Shown: one piece after another, positions 130 through 9,058 of the stretch
Position numbering within the stretch: position 1 is the stretch's first letter
How the letters are laid out: each line of letters starts with the position of its first letter
NCBI GenBank assembly: GCA_020350725.1
Contig: CP070719.1
Span: 1,330,921-1,339,978, forward strand
Reading direction: 5' to 3'
DNA from: a bacterium
GTDB taxonomy: Bacteria > BMS3Abin14
Length of the DNA: 9,058 nt
The notes under the pieces: model-generated
Database searches by the model: none
What the model saw: the letters and a program-made list of their open reading frames with translations, nothing else
Told to the model about the DNA's origin: nothing
Made by a program: the position numbers and the translations under genes

Positions 130-185
130 AAAACGAATCACAAATCACGAATCACTGATTCACCAACTGTGAACTGTGAGCCAGC
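130..185. repeat. Heptanucleotide repeat tract 1 (ATCACRA then AACTGTG words)
   Basis: Seven-base units follow each other in one phase. ATCAC-type words begin at 137, 144 and 151, a variant ATTCACC at 158, and AACTGTG at 165 and 172, followed by a decayed unit at 179. The word changes from ATCACRA to AACTGTG without a change of phase. The part at 134-179 is repeated with three mismatches at 291-336. There is no sign of a gene. Seven is not a multiple of three, so the tract is not a coding repeat, and the units abut without spacers, so it is not a CRISPR array. Confidence 0.8.
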
Positions 186-191
186 CTTTAC

Positions 192-244
192 CACAGAGGA
201 CACAGAGCGGTCCCTTTCAGACCGCATCACAGAGGGCCACAGAG
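192..244. repeat. CACAGAG repeats flanking a small hairpin
   Basis: CACAGAG occurs four times, at 192-198, 201-207, 228-234 and 238-244. The first three are spaced by multiples of nine bases (9, then 27). Between the second and third copies lies a perfect 6-bp inverted repeat, GCGGTC at 207-212 and GACCGC at 220-225, with a 7-base loop. Nine-base CACAGAGGA-type repeats are, from memory, frequent intergenic sequences in several phyla. No function is evident. The period is nine and therefore differs from the 7-base tracts on both sides. Confidence 0.65.
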
Positions 245-251
245 ATGATTT

Positions 252-342
252 CAGTTTTGGATTTTGGATTTGGGACTTTGGATTCGCAATCGAATCACAA
301 ATCACGAATCACTGATTCCCCAACCGTGAACCGTGAACTGGT
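252..342. repeat. Heptanucleotide repeat tract 2, phase-locked with changing words
   Basis: Thirteen consecutive 7-base units can be read in a single phase (start positions divisible by 7, from 252 to 336). GGAYTTT-type words start at 259, 266, 273 and 280; a transitional unit starts at 287; ATCAC words start at 294, 301 and 308; a variant ATTCCCC starts at 315; AACCGTG starts at 322 and 329; AACTGGT starts at 336. The identity of the repeated word changes three times while the 7-base step never slips. The second half duplicates tract 1. The tract ends about 20 bases upstream of the promoter of the first gene. Confidence 0.85.
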
Positions 343-363
343 TTATATCCACCCTCCGGTCGG

Positions 364-393
364 TTGACACCGCTCGACTTAGAAGGGTAAAAT
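364..393 (+). promoter_or_regulatory. Sigma70-type promoter for the paaK/liv unit
   Basis: A perfect -35 box TTGACA (364-369) is followed after 18 bases by TAAAAT (388-393), which matches five of six positions of the -10 consensus. Transcription would start near 400 and give a leader of about 48 bases before the ATG at 448. A short inverted repeat, CGGT at 361-364 and ACCG at 369-372, surrounds the -35 box and could be part of an operator, although its length is compatible with chance. This is the best promoter match seen in the window. Confidence 0.65.
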
Positions 394-447
394 TCCGCGT
401 TCTTTCAGCACAGTCCGATCCATTATGGCCGAAACAAGGGGAGATAG

Positions 448-1749
448 ATGATCTGGGACGAAGAATTCGAGACCATGCCTCGTGAGGCCCTCGAGTCACT
501 TCAGGTCTACCGGCTCAGGAAGACCATTGAGAGGGTCTATGCCACGGTTCCATTCTACAAAGAGGCCTTCGACAAGCGCAAGGTCCACCCGTCAAACATC
601 AATTCCCTGGCCGACCTCCAGCGGCTGCCCTTCACCACCAAATCCGATCTGAGGGAAAATTATCCCTTCAAGCTCTTCACCCTGCCGCTCCACGAGGTGG
701 TGAGGATCCATGCCTCCTCGGGGACCACGGGAAAACCCACCGTGGTCGGCTACACGAAAAGGGACATCGAAACCTGGTCCACCCTGATGGCAAGGACCCT
801 GTCCTGCGCCGGCGTGCGGAAGGGGGACGTCGTCCAGAACGCCTACGGTTACGGGCTGTTCACGGGAGGTCTCGGCTTTCATTACGGGTCGGAGAAGCTG
901 GGCGCCACGGTCATCCCCATCTCAGGAGGCAACACCAAGCGGCAGATCATGCTGATGGAGGATTTCGGCAGCACCGTCCTGACCTGCACACCCTCCTATG
1001 CCCTGACCATATCGGAGGCCATGGACGAACTGGGGATCGGCAAGGACCGCCTCAGGCTGCGTGTCGGGATCTTCGGGGCCGAGCCCTGGTCTCAGAGCAT
1101 GCGGCAGCAGGTGGAGAACAAGCTCGGAATAGACGCGGTGGACATCTACGGGCTCTCCGAGGTGATCGGTCCCGGCGTATCCGTGGAGTGCATCGAGGCC
1201 AAAAACGGCCTCCATATCTTCGAGGATCATTTCATTCCGGAGATCATCGACCCCGATTCCCAGGAGCCTCTTCCATATGGTGAGGAGGGCGAGCTGGTCT
1301 TCACCTCCCTCACAAAAGAGGCCTTTCCCGTTATCAGATACCGGACTCGGGACATCACCCGGCTTTACATGGAACCGTGCAAGTGCGGCAGGACCCATGT
1401 CCGGATGGACAGGGTCACGGGCCGGTCCGACGACATGCTCATCATCCGGGGAGTGAACATCTTCCCCAGCCAGATCGAGAGCCTCCTGATGGAGATCGAC
1501 GGTCTCGAACCCCATTACCAGATCGTTGTCAAAAGAGAGGGAACGCTGGATAATCTGGAGATCAGGATCGAGGTCAACGAGTCGGTTTTCTCGGATGAGA
1601 TCAAGAATCTGGAGCTGCTCGAGAAAAGGGTCGAAAAAGAGTGCAAGGAGAGCCTCGGCGTAGCCACGAAGGTAAAACTGGTCGAACCGAAGACACTCCA
1701 GAGGTTCGAGGGAAAAGCGCAGCGGGTGGTGGATGAGCGAGGCGCCTGA
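448..1749 (+). CDS. paaK: Phenylacetate-CoA ligase family protein, copy 1
   Basis: This 433-residue adenylate-forming enzyme has the normal length for phenylacetate-CoA ligases (aryl acid + ATP + CoA to aryl-CoA + AMP + PPi; cytoplasmic). The phosphate-binding loop SSGTTGKPT is at 90-98, YGLSE at 234-238, GEL at 281-283, YRTRD at 298-302, GRSDDM at 325-330 leading into [11 protein letters not shown] at 334-344, and the C-terminal lysine motif EGKAQRV at 421-427 with probable catalytic Lys423. A CxCG motif (311-314) lies before the hinge. The ATG at 448 follows AAGGGGAG at 436-443 with a short 4-base spacing, and a strong promoter lies upstream. A close paralogue closes the gene set at 7517-8827. 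The real substrate could be phenylacetate, a hydroxylated form, indoleacetate or another aryl acid; sequence alone does not decide. The family call is secure. Confidence 0.93.
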
Positions 1750-1757
1750 CAGAATGA

Positions 1758-1792
1758 GTTCACTGTTCACAGCTTGCGGTTTGCCTTTGAAA
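1758..1792. repeat. Heptanucleotide repeat tract 3 (GTTCACW, then GYTTGCS words)
   Basis: Units start at 1758 (GTTCACT), 1765 (GTTCACA), 1772 (GCTTGCG), 1779 (GTTTGCC) and 1786 (TTTGAAA), all 7 bases apart. The first words are the reverse complement of the AACYGTG words of tracts 1 and 2 (GTGAAC read on the other strand), so this is the same family in the opposite orientation. The tract begins eight bases after the paaK stop codon. A weak 5-bp hairpin, GGTTT at 1778-1782 and AAACC at 1790-1794, overlaps its end. Confidence 0.6.
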
Positions 1793-1810
1793 CCATAACG
1801 GAAGAGGCTT

Positions 1811-1849
1811 CATTATATAAAATATAATTATTTATTAATAATAACTTAA
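1811..1849. promoter_or_regulatory. AT-rich island, possible promoter or protein-binding region
   Basis: Only two of 39 bases are G or C, in sharp contrast to the GC-rich surroundings, and A+T richness continues to about 1880. The island contains TATAAT (1823-1828) and a perfect 10-bp palindrome TTATTAATAA (1832-1841). A TTGAAA (1787-1792) with CATTAT (1811-1816) at 18-base spacing, and TTTACT (1854-1859) with TATTTT (1876-1881) at 16-base spacing, are candidate promoters for the ACT gene; both are weak matches. It could equally be an UP element or a site for a nucleoid protein. No gene is seen in the 189-base gap. Confidence 0.35.
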
Positions 1850-1885
1850 GGGCTTTACTTCTTAAAAAACTTGAATATTTTCGTG

Positions 1886-1920
1886 ACTGGAAACGGTACA
1901 CTGTAAACCGGAAACCGGTT
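1886..1920. repeat. Heptanucleotide repeat tract 4 (ACYGGAA words)
   Basis: Five units start at 1886 (ACTGGAA), 1893 (ACGGTAC), 1900 (ACTGTAA), 1907 (ACCGGAA) and 1914 (ACCGGTT). The tract ends 18 bases before the ATG of the ACT gene, just upstream of its purine-rich ribosome-binding region (1925-1935). It shares ACTGGAAAC with the tracts before livH and before the second paaK. It also shares the 11-mer AAACCGGAAAC and the word GTACACT with the tract at 7467. Confidence 0.8.
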
Positions 1921-1938
1921 CTCCGGGGGGAAGGGAAA

Positions 1939-2370
1939 ATGGGCAAGAAGGTCGAACAGATAAGCATTTTCATGGAAAACAAGGCCGGGAGGATGGCTCA
2001 GATCACCCGGGTCCTTGGGGACGCTGGCGTCAACATCCTGGCGCTGTCCCTCGCCGACACCGCCGACTTCGGCATCCTGAGGCTCATCGTCAGCGACAAC
2101 GACAAGGCGGTTGAGGCCCTCAAAGCGGCCGGATTCACGGTGGGTAAGAACGAGGTCCTGGCCGTGGAGGTACCGGACCACCCCGGCGGCCTGGCGGCGT
2201 TCCTCGAGATACTGGGTGTCAACGAGATCAATATCGAGTATATGTATGCATACAGGAAATCGGGACACGCTATCCTCATCTTCCGATTTGACGACATCGA
2301 ACGGGCGAGAAGTGTCCTGCCGGGGGCGAACTTCAAGATCGTCTCCGCAGACGAGCTTTACAGCGTTTAG
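1939..2370 (+). CDS. Small protein of two ACT domains
   Basis: This 143-residue protein consists almost wholly of two tandem ACT domains, at about 6-66 and 73-138. Both show the usual strand-helix start: the first has the ENKAGRMAQITRVL segment (13-26) followed by GVNI (30-33), and the second has VPDHPGGLAAFLEIL (78-92) followed by INIEYM (97-102). ACT domains bind amino acids or related small molecules and usually regulate enzymes. No enzymatic, DNA-binding or membrane part is present, so it would be a free-standing cytoplasmic sensor or regulatory subunit. It lies between paaK and the amino-acid-type transporter, which suggests that it senses a substrate or product of the pathway; this is inference. 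Stand-alone tandem ACT proteins next to phenylacetate-CoA ligase genes are, from memory, recurrent in Desulfobacterota and archaea. The ATG follows a purine-rich ribosome-binding region at 1925-1935. Confidence 0.88.
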   Translation: MGKKVEQISIFMENKAGRMAQITRVLGDAGVNILALSLADTADFGILRLIVSDNDKAVEALKAAGFTVGKNEVLAVEVPDHPGGLAAFLEILGVNEINIEYMYAYRKSGHAILIFRFDDIERARSVLPGANFKIVSADELYSV

Positions 2371-2464
2371 GTTCTTGGCAGGGTATTCTGCCTCGAACTG
2401 TGTTATATATCGGTCATTTAGACGTTGGGATCCTGTCTGCTGAAGGGGGGAGGAGGAAAAGATA
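2371..2464. other. Gap between ACT gene and binding-protein gene
   Basis: This 94-base gap lacks a clear heptanucleotide tract; a single AACTGTG (2396-2402) followed by TTATAT resembles the end of tract 2. A small inverted repeat, GGCAG at 2377-2381 and CTGCC at 2388-2392 with a 6-base loop, is too weak to call a terminator. A very strong Shine-Dalgarno stretch, GGAGGAGG at 2449-2456, lies 8 bases before the ATG at 2465 and fits high expression of the binding protein. Confidence 0.5.
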
Positions 2465-3655
2465 ATGCTAGGATCGAGAGGTAAAATGAGAAACGCTCTG
2501 TTGGTACTCAGTCTTGTCGTACTCGTGGCTGCCTTCACCAGCCAGTGCGCACCGAAGAAGGCGCCGCCGGTCGAGTTGAAGATCGGGGCCATATTCGCTT
2601 CAACAGGTCCCGCTTCCATGCTTGGCCTTCCGGAGAAGAACACCGCGGAGATGATAGAGGCGGAGATCAATGCCGCCGGCGGCGTTGCCGGCAATCCGGT
2701 CAAACTGATCTTCTACGACACCGAGGGTGACGCGACGAAAACGGTGACGGCCACCAAGAAACTGATCGAGAAGGACATGGTTGACGTCATCATCGGGCCG
2801 ACCACTTCCGGCAACTCGCTCGCCATCATCGATGTCGTGGAGAAGGCCAAGGTGCCCCTGATCTCCTGCGCGGCCTCTATCAGGATCGTACAGCCCGTGA
2901 AACCTTATGTCTTCAAGACGCCCCAGACGGACGTCATGGCCGTGGAGCGGATCTACAGCAGGCTCCAGAACAACGGGATCAAGAAGGTCGCCATCATCAC
3001 CGTCAGCAACGGATTCGGTGACTCCGGGCGGGTCCAGCTTCAGAACCTCGCCGCCGATTACGGCCTCACCATCGTCGCCGATGAGCGCTACGGCGCCAAC
3101 GACACGGACATGACCGTCCAGATGACCAAGATCAAGGGAACGGATGCCGAAGCGATCATCTGCTGGGGCACCAATCCCGGCCCGGCCGTCATTGCCAAGA
3201 ACCGGAAACAGCTGGGCATCACCATTCCCCTTTACAACAGCCACGGCGTGGCCTCCAAGACCTTCATCGAGCTCTCCGGCGATGCGGCCGAGGGAACCTT
3301 CCTGCCCGCCGGTAAACTTCTGGTTGTGGACCAGCTGGATGATTCAGACCCACAGAAGGCCCTTCTTCAGAAGTACAAGACCGATTACGAGTCTAAATTC
3401 GGCGGCGCCGCCAACACCTTCGGCGGCCACGCTTACGATGCCTTCATGATAGCGGTCCAGGCGATGGAGAAGGCCCTTCCCGCCGGCGGCGGAAAGCCCT
3501 CTCATGACGCCATCCGAGCTGAAATCGAGAAGATCCAGGGATTTGTCGGGACAGGCGGCATATTCAACTTCTCGCCGGAGGACCACAACGGTCTGACCAA
3601 GGACGGCTTCGTCATGGTTCAGATCAAGGACGGCGACTGGAGCATGGTCGACTGA
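2465..3655 (+). CDS. ABC transporter substrate-binding protein, LivK/branched-chain amino acid type
   Basis: This 396-residue periplasmic binding protein of the Leu/Ile/Val-binding family captures the solute for the LivHMGF importer encoded downstream. An N-terminal hydrophobic export signal covers about 10-25. The mature fold starts at KIGAIFASTGPAS (39-51), followed by NAAGGVAGNPVKLIFYDTEG (69-88), the hinge-region GPTTSGNS (111-118) and the second-lobe segment KKVAIITVSNGFG (173-185). Cys28 follows the signal, but the residues before it (TSQ) do not match a normal lipobox, so lipid attachment is uncertain. The ATG at 2465 has an excellent ribosome-binding site; an in-frame ATG at 2486 with GAGAGG upstream would give a shorter, more typical signal peptide and is a fair alternative. 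The ligand cannot be predicted: this family binds branched-chain and aromatic amino acids, aryl acids and amides. The paaK neighbours favour an aromatic compound. Confidence 0.92.
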   Translation: MLGSRGKMRNALLVLSLVVLVAAFTSQCAPKKAPPVELKIGAIFASTGPASMLGLPEKNTAEMIEAEINAAGGVAGNPVKLIFYDTEGDATKTVTATKKLIEKDMVDVIIGPTTSGNSLAIIDVVEKAKVPLISCAASIRIVQPVKPYVFKTPQTDVMAVERIYSRLQNNGIKKVAIITVSNGFGDSGRVQLQNLAADYGLTIVADERYGANDTDMTVQMTKIKGTDAEAIICWGTNPGPAVIAKNRKQLGITIPLYNSHGVASKTFIELSGDAAEGTFLPAGKLLVVDQLDDSDPQKALLQKYKTDYESKFGGAANTFGGHAYDAFMIAVQAMEKALPAGGGKPSHDAIRAEIEKIQGFVGTGGIFNFSPEDHNGLTKDGFVMVQIKDGDWSMVD

Positions 3656-3760
3656 GTTTTCTGGAGAAGCGTTCGGCCTCGCCGGCAGCCGGTCCCGTGT
3701 CCAACGGAAAGACGCGTCACGGAGGCGCTGTCGGCAGGACAAGGGACGTAGCGGAGTTAT

Positions 3761-3790
3761 CGAGGGGGCTGGCCTCAGCCGGCCCCCTCG
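3761..3790 (+). terminator. Strong hairpin between binding-protein gene and livH
   Basis: A 13-bp stem, 3761-3773 paired with 3778-3790, closes on the 4-base loop CTCA. It is GC-rich with a single U-G wobble. Only a poor T-rich stretch (TTGTGT, 3791-3796) follows, so it may act as a partial terminator or as an mRNA 3'-end stabiliser. Either role would make the binding protein more abundant than the membrane parts, as is usual for such importers. It lies 105 bases after the binding-protein stop codon in a 225-base gap with no gene. Confidence 0.65.
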
Positions 3791-3850
3791 TTGTGTCGCC
3801 TGGACGGAACACTTACGGAGTTTCCGGCTTTTCGATCGGGCTGTCGCCGA

Positions 3851-3878
3851 ACTGGAAACCGGCAACTGAAAACTAACC
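3851..3878. repeat. Heptanucleotide repeat tract 5 (ACYGGAA words) at the livH start
   Basis: Units start at 3851 (ACTGGAA), 3858 (ACCGGCA), 3865 (ACTGAAA) and 3872 (ACTAACC). The tract ends two bases before the ATG of livH, so it occupies the place where a Shine-Dalgarno sequence should be, and none is visible there. It belongs to the same word family and lies on the same strand as the tracts before the ACT gene and the second paaK. Confidence 0.75.
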
Positions 3879-3880
3879 CT

Positions 3881-4765
3881 ATGGTTCTCGGACAACAGAT
3901 ACTCCAATACCTGATCACGGGCATCACGGTGGGCAGCATCTATGCCCTTATCGGATTTGGATTCAACATCATCTACAATTCTACCGGGATCATCAACTTC
4001 GCCCAGGGCGAGTTCGTCATGCTCGGGGGCATCCTGACGGTCACGGGCATTCAGCTGCTGCATCTTCCCATACCCTTCGCCGCCTTTCTGGCCATCCTCA
4101 CGGTGTCCCTCGTCGGTGTCATCTTCGACATGGCCGCGATCCGCCCCCTGAAGGACGCCAGCCCCATCACCCTCATCATCATCACCATCGGCGCCTCCAT
4201 CTTCATCAGGGGGGTCTCGAGCCTCACGTGGGGCAAGGAACCTTACCCCCTTCCCGCCTTCTCGGGAGAGGACCCCATACCCTTCTTCGGGGCCGTCATC
4301 CAGCCGCAGAGCCTCTGGGTGATGGGCGTCGCAGTCGTCATCGTCCTCCTGCTCCGCCAGTTCTTCGGAAAGACGCTGACCGGGAAGGCCATTCTCGCCA
4401 GTGCCGTCCAGCCCAGGGCCGCGCAGCTCGTCGGCATCGACATCCGCTACATGGTGCTGCTCTCCTTCGGCCTCTCCGGGGGCGTCGGCGCGGCCGCGGG
4501 CATCGTCATCGCTCCCATGAGCATGGTCCAGTACGATATGGGTGTTATGATGGGTCTGAAGGGCTTCTGCGCCGCCATCATCGGCGGCCTAGGACAGCCG
4601 TGGGGGGTCATCTACGGCGGTATCTCGCTGGGCATTCTGGAATCCCTGGGGGCGGGGCTCATCTCCAGCGGCTACAAGGACGCCATCGCCTTCATCATCC
4701 TCCTCCTGATGCTCTTCTTCAGACCGCAGGGAATACTGGGCAGGGGAAAGGGGGACCGGGTGTGA
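3881..4765 (+). CDS. livH: Branched-chain amino acid-type ABC transporter permease LivH
   Basis: This 294-residue inner-membrane permease is one of the two transmembrane subunits of the importer. Its family hallmark is at 18-45, running GSIYALIGFGFNIIYNSTGI (18-37) then INFAQGEF (38-45). The ATPase-contacting EAA-like loop is near 169-186, with AAQLVGI at 180-186, and the GGLGQPWG turn lies at 235-242. Many hydrophobic stretches alternate with short loops, ending in FRPQGILG (280-287). The ATG at 3881 places the conserved N-terminus correctly although no Shine-Dalgarno sequence precedes it. Extension to the TTG at 3791 would add 30 residues of low-complexity, non-family sequence and was not chosen. 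It overlaps livM by four bases (GTGA), which indicates translational coupling. Family assignment is secure; the substrate is unknown. Confidence 0.93.
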   Translation: MVLGQQILQYLITGITVGSIYALIGFGFNIIYNSTGIINFAQGEFVMLGGILTVTGIQLLHLPIPFAAFLAILTVSLVGVIFDMAAIRPLKDASPITLIIITIGASIFIRGVSSLTWGKEPYPLPAFSGEDPIPFFGAVIQPQSLWVMGVAVVIVLLLRQFFGKTLTGKAILASAVQPRAAQLVGIDIRYMVLLSFGLSGGVGAAAGIVIAPMSMVQYDMGVMMGLKGFCAAIIGGLGQPWGVIYGGISLGILESLGAGLISSGYKDAIAFIILLLMLFFRPQGILGRGKGDRV

Positions 4766-5754
4766 ACCTGCGCTCCCTGCTCAGCTCGCCGTATGCCGGG
4801 TTTCTGGCCTTTTCCGCCGTTATCCTCCTCCTGCCGATGGTCATCACCAACGATTACTACCTCAACGTCCTGATCATCATCGGGATCCACTCCATCATCG
4901 CAATAGGCCTCGACCTCCTCCTGGGGTACACCGGCCAGATATCGCTGGGCCACGCCGCGTTCTACGGTCTGGGCGCATACATCTCAGGGGTCCTCTCGGC
5001 CCGTCTCCAGTGGCCTTCATTGGCGGGTCTGGTCGCCTCGCTCATCGGGGTCGCCGTGCTGGCCTTCCTCATCGGCATCCCGACCCTCAAGCTCCACGGC
5101 CACTACCTGGCCATGGCGACGCTGGGCATGGGCATCATCGTCTTCATCTTCTTCCAGGAGCTCGATTTCCTGACCGGTGGGCCTTCCGGCCTGATCGGCA
5201 TCGAGGCCATGTCCCTGTTCGGGGTACCCTTCGAGACGGACCTCAGGTACTATTTCCTGGTGTGCGGTTTTCTCATCGGCACCCTTCTCCTGTCCCTGAA
5301 CGTGGTCCATTCGAGGGTGGGGAGGGCGTTGAGGGCCATACACGGCTCGGAGGTCGCCGCATCGGTGGTCGGCGTCAACATCTCGCGGTACAAAGTGGGG
5401 ATATTCGTCCTCTCAGCTCTGTACGCGGCAGCCGCAGGATGGCTCTACGCCCACTACATCACCTTTATCAGCCCCAGCTCTTTCGGGTTCATGTTTTCTG
5501 TCAAGCTGGTCATCATGGTGGTCATCGGCAGCCTGGGGAGCCTGTGGGGAGCCATCTTCGGCGCCCTCATTCTCACCAGCCTGCCGGAGATCCTCGTGGT
5601 GTTCGAGAACTACGAGACGACCGTCTTCGGAATGATCCTCATGCTCGTCATGATCTTCATGCCCAGGGGACTGCTGAGGGGCATCGGAGACGTGTCGGGC
5701 AAGGCCTTGAGGGCCGTATGGGGCGGTTCGGGGGAGGAGGTTCCGGAACAGTGA
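4762..5754 (+). CDS. livM: Branched-chain amino acid-type ABC transporter permease LivM
   Basis: This 330-residue second permease of the importer starts at a GTG that shares bases with the livH stop codon (GTGA overlap). The LivM hallmark GYTGQISLGHAAF is at 55-67, followed by TLKLHGHYLAMATLG at 108-122, LTGGPSGL at 137-144, and the EAA-like ATPase contact loop at about 187-206 (GRALRAI, then AASVVGV). The GSLGSLWG turn is at 256-263 and MPRGLLRG at 300-307. Multiple membrane segments are evident, and the C-terminal tail after 308 is cytoplasmic. Longer reading in the same frame upstream of 4762 runs inside livH and has no family similarity, so the GTG start is preferred. The stop codon overlaps the livG start by four bases. 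Confidence 0.93.
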   Translation: MNLRSLLSSPYAGFLAFSAVILLLPMVITNDYYLNVLIIIGIHSIIAIGLDLLLGYTGQISLGHAAFYGLGAYISGVLSARLQWPSLAGLVASLIGVAVLAFLIGIPTLKLHGHYLAMATLGMGIIVFIFFQELDFLTGGPSGLIGIEAMSLFGVPFETDLRYYFLVCGFLIGTLLLSLNVVHSRVGRALRAIHGSEVAASVVGVNISRYKVGIFVLSALYAAAAGWLYAHYITFISPSSFGFMFSVKLVIMVVIGSLGSLWGAIFGALILTSLPEILVVFENYETTVFGMILMLVMIFMPRGLLRGIGDVSGKALRAVWGGSGEEVPEQ

Positions 5755-6512
5755 CCATCCTTCTGAGAACGGAGGGCCTCTCGAAGCACTTCGGCGGCGT
5801 CCGTGCCCTGGACGTTCTCGATGTGGAAGTCTGCCAGGGAGCGATCCAGTCGATCATCGGACCCAACGGCGCCGGCAAAACCACCCTTTTCAACGTCATA
5901 TCCGGAGTCCTGCCTCCCTCCGCCGGAGAGGTGGTGTTCAGGGACGAATCAATAACCAGGAGATCTCCCGACAGCATCGCCGCACTGGGGCTGACCAGGA
6001 CATTCCAGAACCTGCAGCTCTTCTCCGAGATGACGGTCCTCGAGAACGTCATGGTCGGGATGCACCTCAGGTCCAGAGGAGGCTTTTTCGCCTCGGCCCT
6101 GAAACTCCCATGGGCCTTGAGGGAGGAGCGCAGGATCAGGGCACGGTCGCAGGAGTGGCTGGAGTTCGTGGGCCTGGCCGATCACGCCCGGCGGATCGCC
6201 GGCAGCCTTCCCTTCGGGCGCCAGAGGGTCCTGGAGGTGGCCCGCGCCCTGGCCACCGAACCGACCCTCCTGATGCTGGATGAGCCGGCGGCCGGCCTGA
6301 ACAGCAGGGAAACGCTGGACATCGCCGACCTGATCGGCAGGATCCGGCACCTGGACATCACGGTCCTCCTGGTGGAGCACGACATGGACCTCGTCATGGA
6401 GATCTCCGACAGCGTGACGGTCATCGATCAGGGAAAGAAGATCGCCGAGGGCGACCCTGAGTCCGTGCGCAATGACGACAGGGTGCTCAAGGCCTACCTG
6501 GGCCAAGAATGA
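5751..6512 (+). CDS. livG: Branched-chain amino acid-type ABC transporter ATPase LivG
   Basis: This 253-residue ATP-binding subunit powers the importer together with LivF. The Walker A motif GPNGAGKT is at 37-44, the Q-loop Gln at 86 (TFQN), the signature segment SLPFGRQR at 152-159, Walker B LLMLDEP at 173-179 with AAGLN, and the switch His at 210 (VEHDM). The degenerate signature (no LSGGQ) is usual for LivG and does not indicate loss of function. The insertion between Q-loop and signature (about 104-130) is also typical of LivG. It starts at GTG within the livM stop codon (GTGA overlap), with GGGGAGGAGG at 5731-5740 as Shine-Dalgarno. Longer reading upstream in this frame lies within livM and was rejected. 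After its stop codon a 121-base repeat-filled gap precedes livF. Confidence 0.94.
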   Translation: MTILLRTEGLSKHFGGVRALDVLDVEVCQGAIQSIIGPNGAGKTTLFNVISGVLPPSAGEVVFRDESITRRSPDSIAALGLTRTFQNLQLFSEMTVLENVMVGMHLRSRGGFFASALKLPWALREERRIRARSQEWLEFVGLADHARRIAGSLPFGRQRVLEVARALATEPTLLMLDEPAAGLNSRETLDIADLIGRIRHLDITVLLVEHDMDLVMEISDSVTVIDQGKKIAEGDPESVRNDDRVLKAYLGQE

Positions 6513-6513
6513 T

Positions 6514-6520
6514 AAAGGAG
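6514..6520 (+). promoter_or_regulatory. Stranded Shine-Dalgarno sequence after livG
   Basis: AAAGGAG begins one base after the livG stop codon and is a good ribosome-binding sequence, but no start codon with an open frame follows at normal distance. Instead the heptanucleotide tract begins at the very next base. In most liv operons livF starts here. The simplest explanation is that this was the livF ribosome-binding site before the repeat region was inserted. That is inference. Confidence 0.4.
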
Positions 6521-6611
6521 TATTCAGGATTCAGGATACAGTATTCAGTATTAAGCGCGAATTGAATCTGACATTTCGACAATATACTGACTACTGAATA
6601 CCGAATAACGA
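6521..6611. repeat. Heptanucleotide repeat tract 6, two inverted arms (TATTCAG / ATACTGA)
   Basis: The left arm has units starting at 6521 (TATTCAG), 6528 (GATTCAG), 6535 (GATACAG), 6542 (TATTCAG) and 6549 (TATTAAG). The right arm has reverse-complement type units starting at 6584 (ATACTGA), 6591 (CTACTGA), 6598 (ATACCGA) and 6605 (ATAACGA). A perfect 10-bp pairing, GTATTCAGTA at 6541-6550 with TACTGAATAC at 6592-6601, would form a stem over a 41-base loop. The element lies between livG and livF inside an otherwise tightly packed operon and would be transcribed. It ends 22 bases before the livF start. Confidence 0.75.
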
Positions 6612-6633
6612 TTCCCTTTTGTGAGGTTCATCC

Positions 6634-7371
6634 TTGTTAAAGGTCCGCAACATCACAACCTATTACGGCAGGATCAGGGTCCTCAAGGGCGTCTCGGTCC
6701 ACGTGGGTGAGGGCGAGATCGTCGCCCTCATAGGGGCCAACGGGGCGGGAAAGACCACCCTGATCAATGCCATCTGCGGTCTGTTGAAAGTCCAGACCGG
6801 AACCATCGAGCTGGAGGGAAGGCGGATCCACAACAGGTCGCCGGAGAGGATCGTCCGGGCCGGCCTCTCCCAGGTACCGGAAGGACGTCTGGTATTCGCC
6901 CCTCTCTCGGTGGAGGACAACCTCAAGCTGGGAGCGTATCTGAGGTACCGGGGAAAGGAAAAGGCTGAGGCCGACGAGACCCTCGAGGAGGTCTACTCCC
7001 TCTTCCCCGTCCTGAAAGAGAGGGCCGGACAGGTGGCCGGGACCCTGAGCGGGGGGGAGCAGCAGATGCTCGCCGTCGGCCGCGCCCTGATGGCCCGACC
7101 AAGACTGCTGCTCCTGGATGAACCCTCCCTGGGGCTCGCCCCCATGATCGCGGGCGAGATCTTCCGAACCATCGCCAAGCTCCGGGAGGAAGGCGTCACC
7201 ATTCTCCTCGTCGAACAGAACGCCAGAGCGGCCCTCGCCCTCGCCGACAGGGGATATGTCCTGGAAACGGGCACGGTCGTCCTCCAGGACAGGGCCGAGA
7301 GGCTCCTCAAGAACAGGGAGGTCCAGAGGGCCTACCTGGGAAAGGGGAAAAAGGAGATATGGGATGCCTGA
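6634..7371 (+). CDS. livF: Branched-chain amino acid-type ABC transporter ATPase LivF
   Basis: This 245-residue second ATP-binding subunit has the length normal for LivF. Walker A GANGAGKT is at 34-41, the Q-loop Gln at 80 followed by VPEGR, the signature TLSGGEQQ at 137-144, Walker B LLLLDEPSLGLAP at 158-170, and VEQN at 193-196. Gln in place of the switch His is the normal state in LivF and so is not a defect. The start is a TTG at 6634 with GTGAGG (6621-6626) as probable Shine-Dalgarno; LivF proteins normally begin just before the conserved LKVRNITTYYG-like segment, which supports this start. The gap to livG is unusual for this operon type and is filled by a heptanucleotide repeat element. 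An 11-bp inverted repeat overlaps its stop codon. Confidence 0.94.
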   Translation: MLKVRNITTYYGRIRVLKGVSVHVGEGEIVALIGANGAGKTTLINAICGLLKVQTGTIELEGRRIHNRSPERIVRAGLSQVPEGRLVFAPLSVEDNLKLGAYLRYRGKEKAEADETLEEVYSLFPVLKERAGQVAGTLSGGEQQMLAVGRALMARPRLLLLDEPSLGLAPMIAGEIFRTIAKLREEGVTILLVEQNARAALALADRGYVLETGTVVLQDRAERLLKNREVQRAYLGKGKKEIWDA

Positions 7372-7394
7372 TTTCCGCTGGTGATCAGGCATCC
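7362..7394 (+). other. Perfect 11-bp inverted repeat over the livF stop codon
   Basis: GGATGCCTGAT at 7362-7372 and ATCAGGCATCC at 7384-7394 pair perfectly around an 11-base loop, and the left arm includes the livF stop codon (7369-7371). No T-run follows, so it is not a classical intrinsic terminator. It could protect the mRNA 3' end, slow termination at the stop codon, or mark a Rho-dependent end between livF and the second paaK. Confidence 0.55.
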
Positions 7395-7466
7395 GGTACC
7401 GAGTTTCCAGGTTATTTCAAAAACCGCAATAATGAATCACCCCTTATTGATCTCCACGGTTGTTCG

Positions 7467-7501
7467 ACTGGAAACTGGAAACCGGAAACTGTACACTATT
7501 T
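7467..7501. repeat. Heptanucleotide repeat tract 7 (ACYGGAA words)
   Basis: Units start at 7467 and 7474 (both ACTGGAA), 7481 (ACCGGAA), 7488 (ACTGTAC) and 7495 (ACTATTT). The tract ends 15 bases before the ATG of the second paaK, directly upstream of its GAGGG ribosome-binding sequence (7504-7508). An inverted 9-mer partner, AGTTTCCAG at 7402-7410, matches CTGGAAACT at 7468-7476. The rest of the 145-base gap holds no gene and no convincing promoter. Confidence 0.8.
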
Positions 7502-7516
7502 TCGAGGGTGTGAATC

Positions 7517-8827
7517 ATGAGCGATCACCGAATCTGGGACGAAGAACGGGAGACGATGCCGAGGGACGAGCTGGAACAGCTCCAGCTCGAGAGGCTTCAG
7601 GCGACCTTCAACCGGGTCTACCGGAACGTCAAGTTCTACCGGAACCGGCTCGATGAGGCGGGGGTCCTTCCGGAGGACATCAAGGGCTTCGGGGACCTGG
7701 GAAAAATACCCTTCACCACGAAGGAAGATCTGAGGGAGAATTACCCTTACGGGATTTTCGCGGTCCCCCTCAGGGAGGTCGTCAGGATCCATTCCTCAAC
7801 GGGGACCACGGGAAAGCCCACGGTGGTCGGCTACACCCGTAACGACATCGACACGTGGAGCGAACTGGTGGCCCGTTTCATGACCGCCGGAGGGGTGACA
7901 AAGGACGACGTCGTCCAGATCGCCTTCGGATACGGCCTCTTCACCGGCGGATTCGGTCTCCACTACGGTGCCGAGAGGATCGGGGCCTCGGTCATTCCCA
8001 TCTCCAGCGGCAACACCAGAAGGCAGCTGATGATCATGGAGGACTACCGGACCTCGGTGCTCGTCTGTACGCCATCCTACTCCATCTACCTGGCCGAGGC
8101 CCTCGAGGAGAACGGCATCAACGCGGACCGGCTCAGCCTGAGGTACGGGCTTTTCGGCTCCGAACCATGGTCCGAGAGGATGAGGAGCGAGATCGAGAGC
8201 CGCCTGGGGATCATCGCCACCGACAACTACGGGCTGTCGGAAGTCATGGGCCCCGGCGTGGCCGGTGAATGCCTGGCCAAGTCGGGTCTCCATCTCAACG
8301 AGGACCACCTCATCCCGGAGATCATCGACCCTGAAACGGGTGAGGTCCTGCCCCTCGGGGAGAGGGGGGAACTGGTTATCACCACCATCACGAGAGAGGC
8401 CATGCCCCTGATCAGGTACAGGACAAGGGACCTGACCCGGCTGTACCGTGAGGAGTGCGAGTGCGGCAGAACCCTGGTCAAGATGGAGAAGGTGTCTGGC
8501 AGGACCGACGACATGATCATCATCAGGGGCGTGAACATCTTCCCCAGTCAGGTGGAGAAGGTCCTGTTCAGCTTTGAGGGGATCACCCCCCACTACCGGA
8601 TCGTCCTCAGCCGGGAGGGGGCGCTCGACGAGATGGCGGTCCTCGTGGAGGTCAACGAGACCCTGTTCTTCGACGAGATGAAGAAACAGAGGTTGCTGGT
8701 CGAGGAGATCAAGGAAGCCCTGCGGAGCGAGCTGGGGCTCAAGGTGTCCCTCAAGCTGGTCGAGCCCCGCAGCCTGGAGAGGTTCAAGGGCAAGGCCGAG
8801 AGGGTGATCGACGAGAGGGAGCGGTAG
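7517..8827 (+). CDS. paaK: Phenylacetate-CoA ligase family protein, copy 2
   Basis: This 436-residue aryl-CoA ligase is clearly paralogous to the protein at 448-1749 over its whole length, with the same order of motifs: P-loop [10 protein letters not shown] at 93-102, FGYGLFTGG at 137-145, YGLSE at 238-242, YRTRD at 301-305, GRTDDM at 328-333 leading into [11 protein letters not shown] at 337-347, and FKGKAER at 423-429 with probable catalytic Lys426. The CxCG motif (314-317) is also shared. The reaction is ATP- and CoA-dependent activation of an aryl acid. Differences between the copies are spread along the protein, including the putative substrate-pocket region (NAYGYG in copy 1, IAFGYG here), so the two may prefer different acids; this is inference. 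The ATG has GAGGG upstream at 7504-7508. It is the last gene of the unit; a probable terminator follows. Confidence 0.93.
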
Positions 8828-8834
8828 AACGGTC

Positions 8835-8863
8835 AAGACCTGGATCCCGGTTCCGGTTTTTTT
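8835..8863 (+). terminator. Probable intrinsic terminator after paaK copy 2
   Basis: A stem of six or more base pairs with one bulged T (8838-8844 with 8852-8857, extendable by A-T pairs outward) closes on a 7-base loop and runs straight into a T-tract of seven (8857-8863). It starts eight bases after the paaK stop codon and separates the transport/ligase unit from the sugar-nucleotide gene downstream. The stem is modest, so confidence is moderate. Confidence 0.5.
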
Positions 8864-8864
8864 G

Positions 8865-8899
8865 GAGTTTTAAACTTTGGATTTTGGACTTTGGATTAA
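8865..8899. repeat. Heptanucleotide repeat tract 8 (GGAYTTT words)
   Basis: Units start at 8865 (GAGTTTT), 8872 (AAACTTT), 8879 (GGATTTT), 8886 (GGACTTT) and 8893 (GGATTAA). GGATTTT and GGACTTT are the same words as in the tract at 252-286, more than 8.5 kb away and on the same strand. The tract follows the probable terminator directly and ends 48 bases before the start codon of the next gene. Confidence 0.75.

Positions 8900-9058
<159 letters not shown>

Follow-up and report, generated by a model that had tools for sequence, protein, structure and literature searches.

The STRR sequences of cyanobacteria, described by Mazel and colleagues, are reportedly intergenic heptanucleotide tandem repeats made of a few named words, with inverted pairing lying outside their definition. 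Degenerate heptamers are also on record from Xanthomonas and Nostoc (PMC4692102), Geobacter (PMC2700814) and Beggiatoaceae (PMC4679880), and according to the SPADE survey (PMC6344855) intergenic heptamers are the most abundant tandem repeats in prokaryotes. The arrays analyzed here come from a 9,058-nt stretch of contig CP070719.1 (assembly GCA_020350725.1; the window), from the remainder of its genome (the own genome) and from related genomes designated by G-numbers. They resemble those of the survey in being tandem, intergenic, abundant, of period 7 and without known function, and they share with the general heptamer class the excess of 7-bp units over other lengths. The accessible part of the survey reports general abundance; inverted pairing and concerted change of word at orthologous gaps belong to the present arrays and set them apart within a known, unexplained class.

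Individual described systems share further properties with these arrays. In Geobacter metallireducens, classes 1-3 of predicted global regulator sites and the GGACCGG x4 family (PMC2700814) likewise comprise three to five units of 7- or 8-base words, arranged as opposite-strand pairs of variable spacing (here, 47 of 124 arrays are paired, versus 13 in a control), and the class 3 word, MTYCTGA, resembles words found here; however, these are few classes with 16–49 copies in one genome, whereas we find some 130 words and turnover at fixed gaps. Both sides of the P6b stem in the trnL (UAA) intron of Nostoc and Calothrix (PMC4476775) are composed of degenerate heptamers, lengths change there in 7-nt steps, and one word class has repeatedly been exchanged wholesale for a second, but this is a single structured-RNA locus with two word classes, while the present arrays are intergenic, genome-wide and free of RNA-strand bias. 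Beggiatoaceae, Cyanobacteria and Bacteroidetes have TAACTGA repeats (PMC4679880) that also form intergenic heptamer arrays near start codons and change in 7-nt indel steps, there between close Cyanothece strains; they use one word in direct orientation, with a single indirect case, whereas in our arrays the TAACTGA ring is not among the commonest words of any genome. The GGGAATC and GGGGAYT repeats of Xanthomonas and Nostoc (PMC4692102) are intergenic, degenerate, mostly of about four units and sometimes inverted within a gap, but represent one G-rich word with proposed quadruplexes, and the words found here are mostly not G-rich. Simple slippage microsatellites share the unit-multiple length change between close relatives, seen here in the small G003/G009 sample. 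As for STRR, which the first-pass annotation of the window had put forward as the known parallel, the likeness holds at the level of the heptamer, but heptamers elsewhere are not confined to a few fixed STRR words; instead of a few words in heterocystous cyanobacteria, we find 132 words in a group whose nearest named relatives are MAGs deposited as Proteobacteria or bacterium.

Heptamer arrays in the window

In the pooled intergenic DNA of the window, identity at lag 7 is 0.375, versus about 0.25 at neighbouring lags and 0.242 in coding DNA. The best local period-7 run of each gap was compared with those of 500 dinucleotide shuffles per gap, which gave p=0.002 for gaps 1-447, 6513-6633, 7372-7516 and 8828-8948, p=0.008 for gap 1750-1938, a weak p=0.11 for gap 3656-3879, and no signal (p=0.32) for gap 2371-2464. 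None of the other periods from 5 to 12 was comparable in these gaps, save for marginal values in the long first one. The original count of repeats in six of seven gaps thus stands for five, the sixth being weak, and six of the eight tracts then listed are detected by TRF or run score, whereas 1758-1792 and 3851-3878 are not long enough to count by themselves. That different tracts are written in different heptamer words is confirmed, the words being AATCACN, AACYGTG, TTTTGGA/CTTTGGA, ACYGGAA and TATTCAG.

The first gap contains a composite block at 130-185, delimited by TRF and sequence, with an AATCACN array (136-155), the palindrome GAATCACTGATTC and an AACTGTG array (165-179). This block recurs at 287-342, in a composite block at 252-342 (TRF; shuffle p=0.002) with arrays of TTTTGGA (255-284), AATCACN (293-312) and AACCGTG (322-338). 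AATCAC and AACNGTG recur together across the own genome, where TTTGGAN x3 occurs 87 times and the reversed pattern not at all. Tract 1758-1792, 3' of the paaK1 stop, has two or three GTTCACN units, of which a weak short left arm, GTTCACT GTTCACA (1758-1775), is not significant alone; the right array of ACTGGAA, ACCGGAA and ACTGTAA units (1886-1920, p=0.008) directly precedes the start of the ACT-domain gene. Directly before the livH start lie AACYGGM-type heptamers (3851-3878; weak, p=0.11), with a possible, weak short left arm, GGAGTTTCCGGCTT, at 3821-3834, read from sequence only. In the livG-livF gap, the left arm (TATTCAG/GATTCAG)n follows the livG stop codon (6519-6555, p=0.002) with an inverted-partner score of 19 against 4-5 in controls, and the right arm, (ATACTGA/CTGAATA)n at 6583-6607, precedes the livF start in inverted orientation to it; TRF, partner score and orthologue comparison support this arm. 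In the livF-paaK2 gap, the right array ahead of the paaK2 start is (ACTGGAA/ACCGGAA)n (7467-7497, p=0.002), and a left arm remnant, GAGTTTCCAG (7401-7410), is recognized by hairpin alignment to that array (score 12.4). The paaK2-gmd gap has a TTTTGGA/CTTTGGA array (8860-8897; TRF, p=0.002). The mirror-image relation of 6519-6555 with 6583-6607, and of 7401-7410 with 7467-7497, had been overlooked in the first-pass annotation.

Extent in the genome and the family

Statistics for the own genome rest on evenly spaced stretches, a 409-kb sample covering about 15% of it. In twenty such 20-kb stretches, intergenic identity was 0.328, 0.313 and 0.292 at lags 7, 14 and 21, versus about 0.267, with no lag-7 excess in their coding DNA; with a better gene finder, the intergenic lag-7 value in the 409-kb sample was 0.325 versus a background of 0.262 (z ~37), and the echoes at lags 14 and 21 were absent from coding DNA. 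The gaps contain 113 period-7 arrays, versus 0.4 in shuffles, and every other period except the harmonic 14 gives at most 22, a number reached by a shoulder at period 8 that fits a preferred step and not a fixed footprint. Extrapolated, this amounts to some 1,400 arrays per genome. The autocorrelation analysis against shuffled controls proposed at first pass therefore reveals an excess of period 7 over periods 5-12 that is genome-wide and confined to intergenic DNA, with tracts in other gaps as well. The lag-7 signal is present in seven of the eight sampled genomes of the family and clear in only one of 76 loci outside it; in no sampled genome does coding DNA exceed background at lag 7. An assembly artefact is unlikely, because independently deposited MAGs, including two single-contig chromosomes (G001, G008), carry arrays with genus-specific words.

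Arrays are typically three to five units long, with a peak at three to four. Across 1.2 Mb from eight related genomes they employ about 130 (132) distinct words, which supports the notion of a shared period without a shared word. A single hidden consensus behind them was rejected, as the words have just a weak common core, WCY, above chance (3.84 versus 3.50 ± 0.10 bits per word). The proposal that three units, about two helical turns, would present a common face found no support: the value at lag 21 is no higher than the fall between lags 7 and 14 would give, and multiples of three are not favoured among unit counts. Adjacent units in the own genome are more similar than distant ones (0.80 at lag 7, 0.68 at lag 28). 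In the main words five or six of the seven columns are nearly fixed and one or two positions are free, and variation is concentrated accordingly (most variable column 0.50 versus 0.39 expected), a pattern that plain mutation does not give, while common descent of array blocks could.

Inverted pairs at orthologous gaps

The inverted partners of the 47 of 124 arrays (13 in the complement control) lie in the same gap. Words found in no other sampled gap have such partners too, for 14 of 41 arrays versus 2 in the control, which indicates that the arms are linked locally. Arrays tend to adjoin the stop codon and to lie 20-40 bp upstream of the next start, and the arms of pairs are 0-389 bp apart. 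In 23 pairs, the units of one arm do not follow the mirrored order of the other (observed 4.15 versus permuted 4.28, p = 0.92), and arms that share a gap resemble each other no more closely than they do arrays of that word in other places (p = 0.83), two results that speak against recent arm-to-arm copying. One pair, at 8960-9211 of locus L188 in G009, has three units matching in order. A single mobile element (MITE) was also dismissed, the spacers of inspected TATTCAG pairs being unrelated and of different lengths.

At orthologous gaps the pair persists, but both arms switch jointly to a different word. The livG-livF gap keeps its pair in four species, written as TATTCAG, ATTTCAA, GCAGAAC or GATCTCA; the paaK1-ACT gap has heptamer arrays in G002, G004, G006, G007 and G011, and in four of these genomes the inverted arrangement is clear; and the livF-paaK2 gap has inverted arrays spelled with other words in G001, G002, G006 and G007. 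Over three orthologous gaps, arms match better within genomes than between them (207.5 versus 142.0 ± 14.6; label permutation p = 5e-5), and no such excess appears in direct orientation. While paaK1-ACT and livG-livF keep their arrays, the ACT-livK gap has them in none of ten genomes, a contrast that could mean selection. Change in unit number, which the first pass had suggested looking for between strains, is seen in the sister species G003 and G009, whose arrays differ in the number of 7-nt units and in some cases, between flanks that are conserved, are spelled throughout with another word; in this small sample, indels near arrays include five of 7 nt, two of 6 nt and one of 8 nt. The number of words and their change at orthologous gaps support the earlier idea that something, be it a process or a constraint, generates or maintains units of 7 bases.

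Origin and significance of the arrays

The arrays belong to a class of intergenic repeats that evolve fast and are found throughout this uncultured lineage, often as mirror-image pairs at gap ends. At a probability that we put at roughly 40%, the paired arrays are made by a replication- or repair-linked DNA process combining slippage with inverted copying. Each array would arise and be remodelled through the gain and loss of tandem units in steps of 7 nt. Occasionally, a template switch at a quasi-palindrome or at a stalled fork would write the reverse complement of an array on the far side of the gap, so that both arms carry one word; such switching is known to generate inverted copies of this kind (PMC8794818). 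Because recent arm-to-arm copying is not directly seen, unit turnover has to be invoked, which would afterwards scramble unit order within each arm; now and then a whole gap would be rewritten with a new word. Selection would mainly purge arrays from promoter-only gaps and from coding DNA, as 7 is not divisible by 3, and the arrays themselves probably have no specific function.

An unlikely alternative is that arrays of 25-35 bp are copied from gap to gap, whether by ectopic recombination, by microhomology-mediated insertion or through some novel mobile mechanism; a newly landed block would change the word of the gap, often as an oppositely oriented pair. Words are genus-specific and recur 70-140 times (the GAGTCCA pattern has 71 copies in the own genome, 76 in G003 and none in G001, G002, G007 or G008), composite blocks recur in strand-consistent form, and of the 173 own arrays that are 24 bp or longer, 64 have an exact 24-mer in common with another array, mostly between unrelated flanks, although chance may partly explain such sharing in degenerate common words. 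The first-pass view that no single mobile sequence was copied about agrees with the many words, but block dispersal may occur as well. REP and REPIN elements are moved by Y1 (TnpA-REP) transposases; here, Y1_Tnp domains number 0-3 per genome, with none found in the array-bearing G007, the copies inspected have no common spacer or terminal sequence, and words found in no other sampled gap still commonly form inverted pairs. Improbable, in our estimation, is a nucleoid or regulatory protein that accepts different words, binds inverted array pairs and so bridges or marks gene ends. The nearly fixed columns of the main words and the placement of arrays beside stop codons and upstream of starts would suit such binding, as would the annotation of paired heptamer and octamer classes in G. 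metallireducens as global regulator sites (PMC2700814), itself a prediction. However, a single sequence-reading protein is unlikely given that the eight genomes use some 130 words with little in common beyond a weak core, there is no 21-bp phase signal, and array-bearing gaps are sparser where gaps are divergent and promoter-rich (0.57 versus 1.19 per kb).

Distinctly improbable are intercistronic RNA hairpins in operons, in which the arms would pair into a long stem of free sequence, for instance protecting or processing mRNA. Such a stem would suit the joint change of both arms and the wholesale word-class replacement in the P6b heptamer stems of Nostoc (PMC4476775), and against shuffles the fold z falls below -3 in 20 of 72 array-bearing gaps versus 7 of 100 array-free ones. 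But arms lack matched unit order, arrays are as frequent in convergent as in codirectional gaps (25% versus 22%), and sense and antisense fold equally well (38:34) with arm mismatches of 18 G-T versus 28 A-C, both small samples; with neither a strand difference in stability nor a G-T excess, there is no sign of selection for RNA pairing, and RNA stem selection was rejected on this lack of strand asymmetry. A reverse transcriptase or similar templated writer that adds heptamers in the manner of telomerase is highly improbable: some main words do look like a fixed hexamer with one free base (AATCACN, GTTCACN), but a family search detected RVT_1 domains neither in the own genome nor in nine of eleven relatives, which contradicts a writer of the RVT_1 type.

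Besides the replication- or repair-linked process that we favour, the inheritance of address and paired form, but not of the word, might point to a word-independent system that keeps mirror-image arrays at fixed intergenic addresses throughout the lineage. We consider this unlikely; if true, it would imply an unknown enzyme that writes inverted-pair arrays, or selection for a DNA structure to which 7-base words of whatever sequence can give rise. A repeat pair kept in the same gene gaps across a dozen genomes while its word changes is a natural experiment that separates sequence from form, and it argues against both one sequence-reading protein and RNA pairing as general explanations. The origin of the 7-base step becomes directly testable in close strains, and the lineage offers a new way into the unsolved question of why seven-base repeats are so abundant in bacteria.

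Period-7 arrays in the window, its genome and its relatives

The window (9,058 bp) carries, all on the plus strand, paaK1, an ACT-domain gene, livK-livH-livM-livG-livF, paaK2 and the start of a gmd-like gene (codon-based calls, named from reading of the translations). In the gaps between these genes, self-match at a 7-base offset is 0.375 versus approximately 0.25, and in coding DNA it is 0.242. The first-pass annotation had described degenerate tandem heptamers of several word families in six of the seven gaps; this stands for five, where a period-7 run exceeds 500 dinucleotide shuffles (p 0.002–0.008; p values throughout are nominal, many tests having been run on the same samples), and is weak in the sixth (p 0.11, 500 shuffles); the gap at 2371–2464 has no run that exceeds the 500 shuffles. 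TRF is in agreement with these runs. Composite blocks on one strand, such as 130–342, are also built from the high-copy words AATCACN, AACNGTG and TTTTGGA, and words of other periods, CACAGAG(GA) nonamers (ACCACAGAGGACACAGAG) and GACGCGGA octamers, adjoin heptamer blocks at 190–242 and 115–130. A long imperfect palindrome, GTTGTCATTGCGAGGAG...GCGGCAATCC...GGATCGCTTC...TTCGCGATGACAGG, lies at 14–107 and belongs to a type that occurs dispersed; relative G003 (locus L132) has a similar stretch, TGTCATTGCGAGGAG...GGCAATCC, and related ones are present elsewhere in the family.

The genome-wide period-7 scan proposed as a check, run on 20 evenly spaced 20-kb stretches of the window's own 2.78-Mb genome, a single scaffold with N100 gaps, revealed an excess at lag 7 and its harmonics that is confined to intergenic DNA. 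In the gaps of this genome, period 7 accounts for 113 arrays (shuffles, 0.4), period 8, the second commonest, for 22, and other non-harmonic periods for at most 10 each; arrays occupy approximately 8.6% of intergenic bases at approximately 510 per Mb, an upper figure with a few N runs counted in. Stretches L033, L037, L039, L040, L043, L045 and L047 contain N runs exactly 100 long, frequently next to gaps rich in repeats, which indicates that the genome was scaffolded and that the longest arrays may be absent.

The phylum was sampled through one family of 12 genomes; those that carry a name are MAGs entered as either 'Proteobacteria bacterium' or 'bacterium'. In samples of 20–200 kb, intergenic-only excess of varying strength recurs in G001, G002, G004, G007, G008 and G009 (z 6–20), with hardly any in G003, for which the sample was small (z 1.3). 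When 80 paaK loci from named genomes were scored, the four family loci were conspicuous at lag 7 (z 2.8–7.2), the single locus standing out beyond the family belongs to a deltaproteobacterial MAG (L090, JAJZUQ010000029.1; z 5.8), and all others have z of 2.5 or less. Gaps of L090 often carry two different words at opposite ends, not an inverted pair.

Words, placement and inverted pairing

Eight genomes yielded 132 distinct words, and vocabularies differ by lineage: GAGTCCAGAGTCCAGAG has 71 copies in the window's genome, 76 in G003, 46 in G009 and zero in G001, G002, G007 and G008, and AATCACN x3 has 139, with 21 in G008, 12 in G004 and zero in G001, G003, G007 and G009. The core common to words is weak (3.84 bits, where real intergenic 7-mers give 3.50 ± 0.10), and the main words have one or two variable positions with the remainder nearly fixed, as in GTTCAC[AGC], [GATC]AATCAC and G[AGCT]G[TGC]CCA. 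Within arrays of the window's genome, neighbouring units are most alike, similarity declining with distance (0.80, 0.72, 0.70, 0.68). In a conserved dispersed block of this genome (L037 9299–9345, 11328–11374 and 14691–14732; L047 4898; L048 221; L050 4837) the word drifts stepwise (GAACTGT, GAACTGG, GAGCTGA, GTCCTAA, GTACTAA, GTGATAT, GTGATAA), in several copies followed by CTTATCTCTTATCACTTATCTCTTA; it resembles a heptamer array that became fixed within a repeated element.

Arrays have three to five units as a rule, an approximate mode since the threshold under-detects two-unit arrays. In codirectional gaps, 27 lie within 10 bp of the upstream stop codon versus 9.6 expected, a second cluster lies approximately 20–40 bp upstream of the next start, and array-bearing gaps are sparser among divergent gaps (0.57 versus 1.19 per kb). 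When the strongest array of each gap was used as probe (n=124), its reverse-complement word occurred elsewhere in the gap in 47 cases, the direct word in 16, the complement alone in 13 and the reverse alone in 9. Where the word was confined to a single sampled gap, an inverted partner was present in 14 of 41 cases, and the other three forms gave 4, 2 and 3, respectively. Two hairpins of G008 (L175 17156–17346; L178 1385–1457) have arms mixing 6- and 7-base units (GTTTCTG GTTTCTG GTTCTG GTGTCTG / CTAGAA CTAGACG CTAGAA CTAGACA).

Word replacement at orthologous gaps

The strongest new evidence in this study is the comparison of orthologous gaps. Between livG and livF, the window's genome has (TATTCAG)n...(CTGAATA)n, G007 (ATTTCAA)n...(CTGGAAT)n, G002 (GCAGAAC)n...(GTTCTAC)n and G001 (GATCTCA)n...(TGAGATT)n; G004 is one-sided, and the 37-bp gap of G009 has no arrays. 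The livF-paaK2 and paaK1-ACT gaps behave likewise, the pair being kept and the word changed, and the ACT-livK gap has an array in none of 10 genomes. Across three gaps, picked because the window contains them, arms match better within than between genomes (sum 207.5 versus 142.0 ± 14.6, p = 5e-5), with little effect in the direct-orientation control. In 37 aligned gaps of the sister species G003 and G009 (approximately 84% identical), some arrays differ by 7-nt units and others were swapped for another word between conserved flanks (for example, GGTTCCT/GGCACCA in G009 where G003 has GTTCAAC/GTTCAAT). In the livK-livH gap (L243–L252), a GC-rich terminator-like hairpin, GGGGGCCG...CGGCCCCCT, is conserved throughout the family, and the arrays around it change words.

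Among the tandem DNA repeats of prokaryotes, intergenic heptamers are reported to be the most abundant, their function unexplained (SPADE, PMC6344855). Described cases include short arrays in Geobacter metallireducens that come in pairs and fall into several 7/8-mer classes (PMC2700814), G-rich degenerate heptamers in Xanthomonas, mostly of four units, and Nostoc (PMC4692102), and the word TAACTGA in Beggiatoaceae (PMC4679880). In the parts of the open-access literature covered, we came across no account of orthologous intergenic gaps in which the word changes in concert. The closest parallel there is the P6b stem of the Nostoc trnL intron, which is made of either of two heptamer classes and has undergone wholesale replacement several times (PMC4476775); the arrays described here show the like across a genome.

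Origin of the paired arrays

Gap address and paired form persist while the word does not, and arms share the word, not the order of variants. Selection for an RNA stem is compatible with the better folding than shuffles (z below −3) in 20 of 72 array-bearing gaps versus 7 of 100 others; sense and antisense folding are equal (38:34), and arm mismatches comprise 18 G-T versus 28 A-C (small counts), giving no sign of RNA-strand selection. One or more tests also speak against each of two further readings, a single sequence-specific protein and a single mobile element. Y1 transposases number 0–3 per genome, and RVT_1, present in 2 of the 12 genomes, was not found in the window's own.

Mirrored unit order between arms was not seen (p 0.92), and arms of one gap resemble each other no more than they resemble arrays of the same word at other places (p 0.83). 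Neither result gives a sign of recent arm-to-arm copying, which unit turnover could mask. The main rival is dispersal of blocks: of the 173 arrays of at least 24 bp in the window's genome, 64 have an exact 24-mer in common with an array far away whose flanks are not homologous on both sides, which suggests that array blocks may also spread, perhaps alongside the following process. The best fit is a replication-linked DNA process that would make and reshape arrays in 7-nt steps, with an inverted copying, which we infer, that would place the word into the opposite arm, and with turnover of units as its third part.
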